From NCBI RefSeq assembly GCF_000023325.1, contig NC_012785.1, forward strand, positions 930,001 through 994,000: a stretch of 64,000 bases of DNA. The letters are read 5' to 3'. This DNA comes from Kosmotoga olearia TBF 19.5.1. Lineage in GTDB: Bacteria; Thermotogota; Thermotogae; Petrotogales; Kosmotogaceae. Positions 33,140-45,210 of the stretch are shown here, piece by piece. Below the pieces are notes generated by a model that saw only the letters and a program-made list of their open reading frames with translations, made no database searches and was not told the origin of the DNA. The position numbers were made by a program, and so were the translations under genes. Position 1 is the first letter of the stretch. Every line of letters begins with the position of its first letter.

Positions 33140-34179
33140 GCAGAATAATAAAAATTGGGAATGTTGAAATAGGCGGAAATAACCCTATCGTAATTCAATC
33201 TATGACAAATACCAAGACCGCAGACGTAAATGCCACTATCTCGCAAATAAGAGCTCTCTCATCAGCTGGATGCGGGATAGTCAGAGTATCTGTCCCGGAT
33301 TTTGAGAGTATAAAAAGCCTGAAAGAGATAGTTAAGAACGTAAAGATCCCGATTGTTGCCGATATCCATTTTGACTATCGTCTCGCCATAGAATCTATAA
33401 AAGCCGGTGCCTCCAAGATTCGAATAAATCCGGGAAACATAGGTGCTGACTGGAAGGTCAGGGAAGTTGTTAGGGTAGCAAAAGAATATGGCGTTCCCAT
33501 AAGGGTAGGGGCGAATTCCGGGTCCATAAAAAAAGGTTACACTCATCTTCAAAAAGCTGAAGCTCTTGCCGAAAGTGCCCTGGAAGAAGTGAGAATTCTT
33601 GAATCCATGGGGTTTGATAGAATAGTCATCTCCGCAAAGTCTTCATCTGTCATGGAAACTATCGAGGCGAATGTTTATATCCACTCTAAAGTTGATTATC
33701 CACTTCATATAGGTGTTACTGAAGCCGGTGTTGGTGAGAGCGCGATCGTGAAATCATCCATAGGGATTGGGGCATTGCTCATCAAAGGAATTGGAGACAC
33801 TATAAGAGTTTCTATGGCTGGGGATCCGATAAAGGAAGTTCTCATAGCAAAAGAAATCCTTAAATCACTTGGTAAGTTGAAAGGGCCGCAGGTGATTGCC
33901 TGTCCCACCTGCGCGCGTACCGAGATAGAGGTAGAAGTTCTTGCAAAAGAAGTAACAGAATGGCTGGAAGGAATAGATGAGGAACTCACAGTAGCTGTCA
34001 TGGGTTGTGTTGTAAATGGTATCGGCGAAGGAAAACATGCGGATATAGGTGTGACAGGAACAAAAGATCAAGCCGTTATATTCATTAAGGGGAAAATCGT
34101 GGAACAGGTGGAAAAAGGTAAACTAAAGGAAAGGTTCTTCTTTCACCTGGAGAATTTATTGGGGAGGAAAAAAACATGA
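33136..34179 (+). CDS. ispG: 4-hydroxy-3-methylbut-2-enyl diphosphate synthase (flavodoxin/ferredoxin)
   Basis: A 347-residue iron-sulfur enzyme of the MEP pathway. A TIM-barrel part begins with [19 protein letters not shown] and includes [15 protein letters not shown] and IRINPGNIG and [12 protein letters not shown]. The C-terminal part carries the three cluster cysteines in [12 protein letters not shown] and [17 protein letters not shown], with the conserved Glu in between. The GTG at 33136 overlaps the protease stop. Electrons may come from the reduced ferredoxin pool that also feeds Rnf; that link is inferred. Confidence 0.97.
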
Positions 34180-35147
34180 AGGTATCCATAATTGGTGCGG
34201 GAATGGTTGGATCGTCAATCGCCTATGCAACGATGATAAAAGGGGTAGCAAGGGAAATAAGCATCGTGGATATAAACGGTGATTTAGCGGAAGGTCAGGC
34301 TCTCGACTTGAGTCATGGAGCTCCCTATGTTCATCCTGTAAGGATAAAAGGCGGCAATGATTACAGTTTAACGAAAAATTCCGATGTTGTCGTTATCACT
34401 GCCGGTAGAGCTCAAAAACCTGGTGAAACGAGATTACAGCTTCTTAAAAGTAATGCGAAGATCATCTCTTCGATAGTTGAAAGCTGTCTCAAATATTCCG
34501 AAAATCCGATAATACTGATGGTCTCAAATCCCGTAGATGTGCTTACGTGGGTAGCGTGGAAGAAATCCGGGCTACCAAGAGAACGAATTATCGGTTCAGG
34601 TACGACACTTGATACGGCAAGGCTCAGACAGAATATAGCAGATCATTGCAAACTTGACCCGAGAAGTGTACATGCCTATATTATAGGAGAACATGGGGAT
34701 AGTGAAATCGCCAGTTGGTCCACGGCGAATGTGGGAGGAGTTCCAATAAAAGAATTCTGCAATGGCTGCTTGGCTAAAGGGTGCGAAAGAGATAAGGTGT
34801 TCGAAAGAATATTCGAGAATACCCGTGATGCTGCTTATAAAATCATTGAAAAGAAAGGCGCTACATACTATGGTATCGGCCTTGCTGTGGCAAGAATTCT
34901 TGAAACTATCGCTGGAGATCATCATTCTGTCTTAACGGTATCCAGTGTCCATGAAGAGTTTAGAGGAATGCGGGATGTTCCTTTTAGTGTTCCCAGTGTT
35001 CTGGGTAAAAAAGGAATAGAAAGAATCCTTCCTTTAAAACTCTCGGACGATGAATTGAAAGGATTAGAAAATTCCGCGAAAGTTATAAAAGCTGCTATAG
35101 AAAGCATATTAGAGAATCGAGAGCCGAGAGCCGAGAATCCGAGATAG
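34176..35147 (+). CDS. ldh: L-lactate dehydrogenase with element-derived C-terminal tail
   Basis: A 323-residue NAD-dependent L-lactate dehydrogenase, reducing pyruvate in fermentation. The Rossmann motif is [12 protein letters not shown]. The specificity loop [16 protein letters not shown] has Gln (lactate) where malate enzymes have Arg. Catalytic residues lie in [11 protein letters not shown] and the active His in IIGEHGDSE. The ATG overlaps the ispG stop by 4 bp. The final residues (about [11 protein letters not shown]) and the stop codon are encoded by CCGAGA-type repeat sequence of the neighbouring element, so the natural C terminus has been replaced by a short charged tail. The fold is otherwise complete, so activity is probably kept. 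Confidence 0.95.
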
Positions 35148-35158
35148 CAGCTACGCTT

Positions 35159-35291
35159 GAAGTGCGGAGCTGCGCTCCGGACGCTCACGAGGTTGAGGTT
35201 TGCAGACGCTGTGCGCTGCTTCGCAGCGGTTGTGCTGGGCTTTGCCCAGGCTGTGCGTGACTTCGTCACGGCCATGCGGCTCTTCGAACCG
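35159..35291 (-). repeat. Left hairpin array (minus-strand polarity), 21-bp units
   Basis: Four contiguous 21-bp units start at 35208, 35229, 35250 and 35271. Each has a GNNNTG spacer on the plus strand, a 6-bp arm, a 3-nt loop and the complementary arm. Read on the minus strand the arms are CGGTTC/GAGCCG, CGTGAC/GTCACG, CTGGGC/GCCCAG and CGCTGC/GCAGCG, with loops GAA, GAA, AAA and GAA. A fifth unit at 35159-35179 (arms CGGAGC/GCTCCG, loop GCA) is separated by a degenerate 28-bp stretch. The one non-Watson-Crick pair is a T-G wobble on the minus strand. Confidence 0.85.
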
Positions 35292-35307
35292 GAATAAAAT
35301 ATCTTTT

Positions 35308-35427
35308 AACCCGCCGCAGGTGCGTGTCAACTGCGAAGCAGTTCGTAACAACTCCGAAGGAGTTCGCACCACCGGCGAAGCCGGTCGTATCAATCCCGAA
35401 GGGATTCGTCTCTGCCGCGTAGCGGCT
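35308..35427 (+). repeat. Right hairpin array (plus-strand polarity), 21-bp units
   Basis: Units start at 35329, 35350, 35371, 35392 and 35413, exactly 21 bp apart. Arms are AACTGC/GCAGTT, AACTCC/GGAGTT, ACCGGC/GCCGGT, AATCCC/GGGATT and TGCCGC/GCGGCT (last outer pair mismatched). Loops are GAA four times, then GTA. Spacers follow CGNNNC (CGTAAC, CGCACC, CGTATC, CGTCTC). A decayed unit at 35308-35328 keeps only the spacer CGTGTC. Confidence 0.88.
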
Positions 35428-35503
35428 TTCTCGGACTCTCGGATCCCCGGACTCTCGGTTCTTGAAGTATCTTTTTCATCACATGAACCAAGGAGGGATT
35501 TGG

Positions 35504-36580
35504 GTGAGTAAAAGTTCTTTTTCATTCTTTGCGATGATCCTATTTTTCTCAGGGGTACTATTCGCTTATGCTGGCATACAATACGAACCTGAAAATATCA
35601 GACTTGTTCCACCAGAAAGCGACTTAAAAGCACTATTATGGACTAACAAACCTACTGGTTCAATGTATCTTTCTGGTGAAGAGATGGTAATTCATTTTAA
35701 GACAAACAAAGATGCTTACGTAACCATTCTCGACATCCTTCCGAATGGGAAAATAAAAGTTCTGTTTCCGAATAAATTCGAGAAGGATAATTTTATTCAA
35801 GCAGATGTTGAATACACGCTTCCAGGGACCTCTTCAGAGTATCGCTTGTTAACTGGAGATATCACAGGCAAGGAAGTGTTCATATTAATAGCGTCAACAG
35901 AACCATTGTATTTTCTGGATCCTGTTTTTATACGATTACAATATTCAATTTTTACTTATTTCTTGAGCGATGTAACTGCTTTCGTCCCTACGGTTACTCG
36001 TTCGCTTGACAACGTTCCTTGGACTGTTGCTGCAACATATCATTATATCAACTACCTTCCGAACCTCCAGCGTGTGAGGTTAGATTCCGATCGCCCGAAC
36101 ACAAAAGTTTATGTCGATGGACTTTATTCTGGAATCGCTCCGGTCGAATTGAAACTTGAGGAAGGAAAACACAGTGTTTACATGTTCAACGACAAGGAAC
36201 TCGCTTACGGTCCGGATGTCATAAATGTAAGTGCTGTTTCGAGGCAATTTGATTTTCAGTTATTTCCAACCTATCCTTATGGGTTCATAGATGTTTTCTC
36301 CGACCCTGTTGGCGCGAATGTTTACGTTGATGGAAAATATGTTGGAAAAACCCCCTATCACGATTTTGCCAGGGTTGGGTATAGATCGGTTAGAGTTTCA
36401 AAATGGAAGTATCACTCTGTTACGCAAGAAGTATATGTAGATGAAGGTGAAGTAAGCACAATCGATGTTCAGCTTGTTCCCAAGACTGAAGAAGAGATAA
36501 GAAAAGAAATAAATACAATGATTTTGGTTATGGGCATCGCGGTCAGTATCATAGCATTACTGATTATACTATCACAATAA
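35504..36580 (+). CDS. Secreted DUF4384 and double PEGA-domain protein
   Basis: A 358-residue protein with an N-terminal signal peptide or anchor (SFSFFAMILFFSGVLFAYA). Next comes a DUF4384-like domain (about 40-150; YVTILDILPNGKIKVLFPN, ending EVFILIASTEPLYF). Two PEGA repeats follow, RVRLDSDRPNTKVYVDGLYS and GFIDVFSDPVGANVYVDGKY, where tandem surface-type beta domains are expected. A C-terminal membrane helix (TMILVMGIAVSIIALLIILS) ends the protein. It should be anchored in the membrane and face the toga or periplasm. PEGA proteins are structural or binding scaffolds; the partner is unknown. Start: GTG at 35504 after AGGAGGG; the frame extends back into the hairpin element but without a start signal. 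Confidence 0.85.
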   Translation: MSKSSFSFFAMILFFSGVLFAYAGIQYEPENIRLVPPESDLKALLWTNKPTGSMYLSGEEMVIHFKTNKDAYVTILDILPNGKIKVLFPNKFEKDNFIQADVEYTLPGTSSEYRLLTGDITGKEVFILIASTEPLYFLDPVFIRLQYSIFTYFLSDVTAFVPTVTRSLDNVPWTVAATYHYINYLPNLQRVRLDSDRPNTKVYVDGLYSGIAPVELKLEEGKHSVYMFNDKELAYGPDVINVSAVSRQFDFQLFPTYPYGFIDVFSDPVGANVYVDGKYVGKTPYHDFARVGYRSVRVSKWKYHSVTQEVYVDEGEVSTIDVQLVPKTEEEIRKEINTMILVMGIAVSIIALLIILSQ

Positions 36581-44737: not shown

Positions 44738-45210
44738 ATAATCCCTCCCGCAATAGTGTTCTGAGGTACTCTAAATTATACAATCGTTTTGTAAAGAAGC
44801 AAGGAGCAATGATGTTACATGAGAAATCGATTGATGGATAGTTAGTTTAACTAACAAACGCATTTATAATAATAGTAACAACGAAAAAGATCTGGTAAGC
44901 ACTCCTTCGGAGTGGGAAACAATAGACGTTTGCAAAGGCTGTCAATTGGTAGAGTGACGTTTGCGACAAAAAACACGAGAATCCGATGTTCGAGATCGAC
45001 GCGACTGACTTCGCCGAGGAAACGATTAATTCTGTCGGTGACACGTGTCTGCGGCGGGAAGAGTAGAAGAGCGGGTATCGGGTCTGGGTAGAGCAGCTGC
45101 TTTTTACTCTTTACAGCCAGAGAGAAATTTACCTCACTGACATCATTTGTGATAAATGAACCTTTATCAAAGTATATAATTTATGGAATCTATTTGAAAG
45201 GATATGACGA
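44738..45210. other. 473-bp gene-free region with palindrome, promoter-like box and one array-type hairpin
   Basis: No supported protein gene. It contains a 15-bp palindrome GTTAGTTTAACTAAC (44841-44855), then TATAAT at 44865-44870 with the palindrome in the -35 position. At 44900-44914 there is a single hairpin CACTCC/GGAGTG with loop TTC (GAA on the minus strand), the same design as the 35.2-kb array. The next 150 bp is G/C-richer than typical spacers, with scattered CGAGA and TTCGAGA strings (about 44973-45000). It may be a decayed copy of that element. A TATAAT near 45175 could serve the helicase gene. Confidence 0.4.

Follow-up and report, generated by a model that had tools for sequence, protein, structure and literature searches.

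Short palindromes repeated between bacterial genes are best known from the REP, BIME and REPIN sequences and their RAYT (TnpA-REP) enzymes. They are present in high copy number, mainly in intergenic DNA, as single units, as mosaics or as inverted pairs. Neisserial intergenic mosaic elements and BOX elements are also modular intergenic repeats, which are reshuffled by recombination. At the level of the fold, DNA loops of the d(GCGNAGC) type are unusually stable. Within the REP family, some members vary in the stem with complementary changes (PMC3733652). CGTC-3 REPs have been described in K. olearia and M. prima; these palindromes bear a CGTC tag, have 9-bp stems that begin with AT and loops mostly of 5 nt, and mostly form head-to-head pairs (Di Nocera 2013; PMC3733652). 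Finally, template switching yields compensatory stem changes with loops that are kept or inverted, with a preference for loops that have a stable DNA form (PMC8794818).

Here, we focus on a window of 64,000 nt (positions 930001-994000) in the genome of the thermophile Kosmotoga olearia TBF 19.5.1 (G000), a single contig of 2,302,126 bp. The window holds a feature that is best read as one copy of a dispersed, non-coding palindromic mosaic element, REP/BIME-like but of another architecture: 15-nt hairpins (N5-C, a GNA loop, G-N5) are joined by CGNRNC spacers into a 21-bp unit. No description of GNA hairpin arrays was found in open-licence papers.

Ten Hairpins in a Composite Element

Reading of window positions 34600-36000 and a listing of all hairpins with a 6-bp stem and a 3-nt loop confirm ten 15-nt hairpins, exactly where the first-pass annotation had located ten GNA-triloop units with a 21-bp step. 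The run of minus polarity (35165-35291) comprises CGGAGC.GCA.GCTCCG (35165-35179), CGCTGC.GAA.GCAGCG (35214-35228), CTGGGC.AAA.GCCCAG (35235-35249), CGTGAC.GAA.GTCACG (35256-35270) and CGGTTC.GAA.GAGCCG (35277-35291), the last with one G-T wobble. The run of plus polarity (35329-35427) comprises the perfect hairpins AACTGC.GAA.GCAGTT (35329-35343), AACTCC.GAA.GGAGTT (35350-35364), ACCGGC.GAA.GCCGGT (35371-35385) and AATCCC.GAA.GGGATT (35392-35406), followed by the terminal hairpin TGCCGC.GTA.GCGGCT (35413-35427), whose outer pair is open, as is usual at the terminal position. The loop is GNA in nine units and AAA in one. Eight stems pair perfectly, and the other two are those with the wobble and the open outer pair. 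The step is 21 bp except for the isolated unit at 35165. All ten were read in the sequence; the unit at 35165 also appears in the hairpin listing, those at 35277 and 35413 were found by a covariance model, and the others by both. This model describes two adjacent hairpins and was built partly from the window's own units, which score up to E 1.5e-14. Besides the main array units, it gives a weaker match in the window at 44888-44914. A second, degenerate patch of the repeat family extends over 44888-45080, with a lone CACTCC.GAA.GGAGTG hairpin of minus polarity and a relic repeat. Hairpins with a 6-bp stem, a triloop and at most one wobble number 84 in the window; single ones are common by chance, phased C-RNA-G arrays are not.

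The whole composite element measures about 340 bp (35126-35462) and consists of an inverted type C array joined through a linker to a type A array (types described below), with TCTCGG-rich tails at both ends. The left tail (35113-35146, minus strand) is built of CGAGAG-type repeats, the reverse complement of TCTCGG, and pairs in predicted folds with the TCTCGG-rich right tail (35428-35462, plus strand), which was placed by sequence reading and by copies in the genome. The tails are mutually complementary and thus form terminal inverted repeats, as in MITEs. Elsewhere in the genome, at 917 and 929 kb, two nearly complete copies show 89.7% and 89.3% identity to the element and have unrelated flanks; because the match at 929 kb covers window positions 35106-35441, the element ends are uncertain by about 20 bp. 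Counting the element itself, 119 matches to it occur in ~0.9 Mb of the host genome, more than 100 of them partial. At three copies, whose ends are imprecise, no target-site duplication was visible by eye; hence, the copies may have spread by recombination and not by true mobility.

An Occupied and an Empty Junction

The element is located between a lactate/malate dehydrogenase gene (ldh/mdh; 34176-35147, plus strand) and a downstream gene for a DUF4384/PEGA protein (35504-36580, plus strand, probable GTG start). About 350 bp of element part the two genes in the window, whereas alignments show them directly adjacent, ~50 bp or less apart, in three relatives (G002, G006 and G005). The relatives therefore represent the empty state and the K. 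olearia genome the occupied state of this junction, the only site compared cleanly between genomes, which provides the pair of occupied and empty sites sought by the first-pass annotation. The reading frame of ldh/mdh enters the element and has gained a C-terminal tail of ten residues and a new stop codon from the left tail. Proteins of relatives align with the ldh/mdh product only up to residue 311-315.

A Family With a Shared Grammar

A simple pattern search of the genome matched 31 places, and the covariance model gave 207 matches genome-wide, with many more candidates unscored. In ~0.9 Mb of genome stretches, 174 arrays with 587 units were counted, a density that is not a genome average because some stretches were picked for holding arrays. 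In the same stretches, 288 of ~410 steps between units are 21 bp long; steps of 20 bp (47) and 19 bp (23) belong to other array classes. Spacers of 4-6 nt follow the consensus C-G-N-R-N-C. The stems recur in order: type A arrays run AACTGC or AACCGC, AACCAC, AACTCC, ACCGGC, AATCCC and CGCYGC into a TCTCGG-rich tail, type B arrays run CACTCC, CCTGAC, CCCAGC, CCACGC and AGCCGC into a tail, and type C arrays run CGCAAC, CGTGAC, CTGGGC and CGCTGC. Some copies of these types lack some of the words. Perfect C-GNA-G hairpins number 79 in 404 kb of the host genome versus 3 in one dinucleotide shuffle. The excess is absent in three other Thermotogota samples (2 versus 6 shuffled in G009, 1 versus 3 in G018 and 0 versus 2 in G044), and an equivalent family in the Mesotoga-like genome G009 is thus rejected.

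As abundant, mainly intergenic short palindromes, the arrays resemble REPs. Convergent gene gaps are enriched at array sites (29/84 versus 69/443), and relative to neighbouring tandem genes, called as crude ORFs, 20 arrays are sense and 18 antisense. Other degenerate intergenic repeats adjoin the arrays in four stretches (L005, L007, L018 and L065), for example GTACAACCTACAACG (10-bp) and TCTCGG (8-bp) runs, which are present in G002 too. In L004, L010 and L136, arrays are accompanied by palindromes of the GTCATCCTGAACTTGATTCAGGATCTC type, which look like the CGTC REPs described in K. olearia.

Like REP, BIME and REPIN sequences, the arrays are high-copy palindromes that occur singly, as mosaics or as inverted pairs in a host with RAYT-like enzymes. 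Unlike them, they have up to six different hairpins per run, 6-bp stems, a (G/A)NA triloop, a vocabulary of ~100 stems and TCTCGG tails, and they lack a GTAG or CGTC tag at the stem end: the spacers fit CGNRNC, the preceding four bases are not GTAG, and CGTC is only occasional. Since the arrays behave as REP/BIME mosaics but lack the tag, they appear to be a variant of the REP/BIME kind and not members. The CGTC-3 REPs share the host species, and such palindromes often adjoin arrays, yet tag, stem and loop differ and the two are distinct. Neisserial mosaic and BOX elements are modular like the arrays but, as commonly described, differ in sequences, spacing and loops. Template-switch hairpins offer a mechanism, not a family: one-step hairpin-templated copying could explain two-sided stem changes and loop inversions, but has been described in rRNA and microRNA genes and not in a dispersed repeat family (PMC8794818).

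Several other classes do not fit. An integron attC site is rejected because the units have 15 nt with CGNRNC after them, and because AAC/GTT is missing from many stems. Such sites are imperfect inverted repeats of 57-141 bp with RYYYAAC...GTTRRRY ends. A CRISPR array would have identical repeats and unique spacers of ~26-50 bp, whereas here units differ and spacers have 4-6 nt. An intrinsic terminator would combine a G+C-rich stem with a T-run, whereas CGNRNC spacers follow the units. A protein-coding repeat comes to mind because 21 bp equal seven codons and the arrays are open in several frames; it is ruled out by units of 19 and 20 bp, the intergenic sites and the lack of an orientation preference.

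Pairing Is Kept While Stems Change

Of 570 unfiltered 15-mers located 21 bp to either side of a good unit, 272 form all six Watson-Crick pairs, versus 0 of 1332 at control offsets. Stem covariation stood up to statistical testing in a set limited to units with four or more pairs and a loop whose last base is A: two-sided changes within stem classes occupy 308 cells (299 Watson-Crick) versus 58 expected under independence, although the largest class brings together several different words, and part of this change therefore reflects differences between old words and not recent mutation. Paired cells number 1930 versus 1507 ± 15 after shuffling the 3' arms within classes; because related copies are not independent, these covariation figures measure pairing beyond chance and not a number of events. 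The loop rule of the first-pass annotation holds as well. Among 15-mers at ±21 bp with at least four of five outer pairs, ~97% have a (G/A)NA loop, with a variable middle base that is rarely G. The differing stems of neighbouring units, which had been taken for covarying versions of one hairpin, turn out to be drawn from a common stem vocabulary and to follow a fairly constant order. The host vocabulary comprises 102 stems, and 26 of 38 units of G002, a genome of another genus, use stems among these in a scan independent of stem sequence. Neighbouring stems are therefore separate words of this vocabulary and were not made side by side.

Mismatches in the GNA orientation are G-T in 71 cases and A-C in 73. 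Selection on the RNA fold of one strand should prefer G-U, so this parity does not favour a one-strand transcript, and an RNA with a G-U signature is rejected. Loop-inverted units are found inside GNA arrays, for example CCTGAC.TTC.GTCAGG at position 1,503,253 of the genome, between two GNA units; such inversions are few, in about three places that yield nine rows when counted from both strands. Given the mismatch parity, the lack of gene orientation and the in-place loop inversions, constraint or copying looks to act at the DNA level, which we favour. Overall, the first-pass interpretation stands in part. As for what maintains the fold and not the sequence, copying accounts for the data as well as selection does (no RNA-strand mismatch signature, some loops inverted in place, modules exchanged between strains).

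Distribution Among Relatives and Strains

Related genomes, where further copies had been predicted, do contain them, and the family appears confined to Kosmotogaceae among the genomes searched. Outside Thermotogota, exact-unit matches in 84,980 species are single copies only, at about the chance number, and a wide taxonomic spread is rejected. A phage or plasmid origin found no match either; the sole match in viral_contigs has no surrounding array.

Two metagenome contigs, L129 and L136 (G041 and G004), carry the same locus as 132 kb of the host genome, with 99.5% identity to the host for L129 and 97-99% for the flanks of L136. Both are near-identical to the host yet binned with other Thermotogota, and thus look misbinned. 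One array end in L136 departs from the host as a block, and the modules there are arranged as at another place in the host genome. This block difference suggests that modules may be exchanged between strains by recombination. In array-rich regions of two genera (L107-L114 versus L183-L185), several genes are 87-92% identical, compared with 71% for ldh/mdh; hence, horizontal exchange is a likely contributor.

RAYT-Like Genes and Array Density

The host genome encodes two RAYT-like proteins that match Pfam Y1_Tnp above the cut-off; their best NCBIfam match is REP_Tyr_transpos, at 67-68 bits versus a cut-off of 80. The same array remnant lies downstream of both genes, and a full array downstream of one. 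The RAYT gene of G002 has no array next to it, so that flanking by arrays fails there as a general rule. Among the listed top-scoring matches, 25 of 79 array clusters in G000 lie within 100 kb of RAYT-like genes (6.9 expected) and 8 of 19 in G002 within 50 kb (0.9 expected), but the dense regions of the two genomes share orthologous genes, are not independent and may be one inherited hotspot. Arrays are also present in G006, where the RAYTs are broken, and in G008, where no RAYT was found, and they are few or missing in other RAYT genomes of the family, including Mesotoga-like ones. The host RAYT-like genes carry a GGGACAG-type upstream sequence that resembles TIRYT repeats, which are TIRs of the GGGGWSAS type (PMC3733652). 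Between TIRYT repeats and the hairpin arrays there is no sequence relationship. Among other ORFs of the host genome, about a dozen (242-267 aa) match PF00308 and encode DnaA-like ATPases, which are probably multiple copies of IstB-type insertion-sequence helpers.

The array-dense region of G000 (1.25-1.45 Mb, L107-L114) surrounds the two RAYT-like genes. Array orientation is biased only there (23/25) and flips about the GC-skew minimum at ~1.37 Mb; the 32 versus 22 outside is not significant. With the origin at ~1.37 Mb according to GC skew, the GNA strand would be the leading-strand template in the biased region, and elsewhere no significant bias is seen; thus, ssDNA transposition from the lagging-strand template, read by the GNA strand, is rejected. 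The dnaA gene lies at 0.4 kb of G000, far from the GC-skew minimum. Mobilisation by the two RAYT-like transposases of the host is a plausible hypothesis. The single-stranded DNA stage suggested in the first-pass annotation is likewise still a hypothesis, which fits the strand-specific GNA loop and the clustering near RAYT-like genes.

Alternative Explanations

If the GNA hairpins were the substrate of a host RAYT-like (TIRYT-like) HUH enzyme that transports the arrays in ssDNA form, in the way suggested for REP/REPIN with TnpA-REP, the arrays would be non-autonomous ssDNA transposons. The first G in a triloop is recognised by a related TnpA-REP (PMC8266576), loop polarity is uniform within each array, and the remnants behind both RAYT-like genes, the full array behind one and the densities around RAYTs in G000 and G002 point the same way. 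Against this, the upstream sequence of the RAYT-like genes is like TIRs and unlike the hairpins, the G002 RAYT lacks an adjoining array, arrays persist with broken or missing RAYTs, Mesotoga-like RAYT genomes have few or none, the two dense regions are not independent, and replication-strand bias is not significant beyond the dense region. We regard this explanation as doubtful.

Structured RNA would shift the constraint to transcripts, in which the hairpins act as stabilisers or protein-binding sites and stems are kept by selection on the RNA fold. The strong compensatory change and the enrichment in convergent gene gaps would suit such a role, as would the folding of the 353-nt region as RNA (z -6.3), but its folding as DNA is equally exceptional (z -7.7), no Rfam family matched, the GNA strand has no G-T excess over A-C, and the arrays are unoriented relative to tandem genes, which makes an RNA role improbable. 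Since 21 bp correspond to two helical turns and REP/BIME sequences bind gyrase or IHF, the units might instead present the same face of duplex DNA to a nucleoid or topology protein. The dominant 21-bp step and the conserved C, G, purine and C of the spacer agree with such a binding array. However, other classes step by 20 or 19 bp, and neither a polar GNA loop whose middle base varies nor changing arms would be needed in a duplex site; we hold this to be very improbable.

Proposed Mechanism and Implications

The joint explanation that we consider probable, with clear reservations, is a REP/BIME-like mosaic element that maintains its pairing through events on the DNA and may be dispersed by a trans-acting enzyme. 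The hairpin would form in single-stranded or cruciform DNA, where the very stable GNA turn may allow one arm to template the other during replication by template switching. Corrected modules would then spread by ectopic recombination, and selection by a protein reading the C-GNA-G loop and the spacer may be added on top. Dispersal, the less certain part, would depend in trans on a mobile-element enzyme, with the host RAYT-like HUH transposase as the best candidate. Equal G-T and A-C mismatches would also be expected if both strands were transcribed, or without a strand-specific constraint. Moreover, stem words common to genera would be unexpected from free template-switch drift alone, unless dispersal or horizontal exchange is recent. 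A bolder and rather unlikely version is an undescribed DNA-level system, in which GNA arrays are dispersed as ssDNA by a RAYT-like enzyme that recognises loop and spacer irrespective of the stem, while hairpin-templated copying re-perfects the stems, so that ~100 interchangeable stems are built and shuffled genome-wide.

Because a single small genome holds homologous hairpins by the hundred, with strong two-sided change, a strict loop rule and module exchange at the strain level, the family amounts to a natural experiment on the persistence of palindromes. It makes selection versus template-switch copying directly testable, and beyond the tagged REPs its arrays provide candidate substrates for RAYT/TIRYT enzymes.
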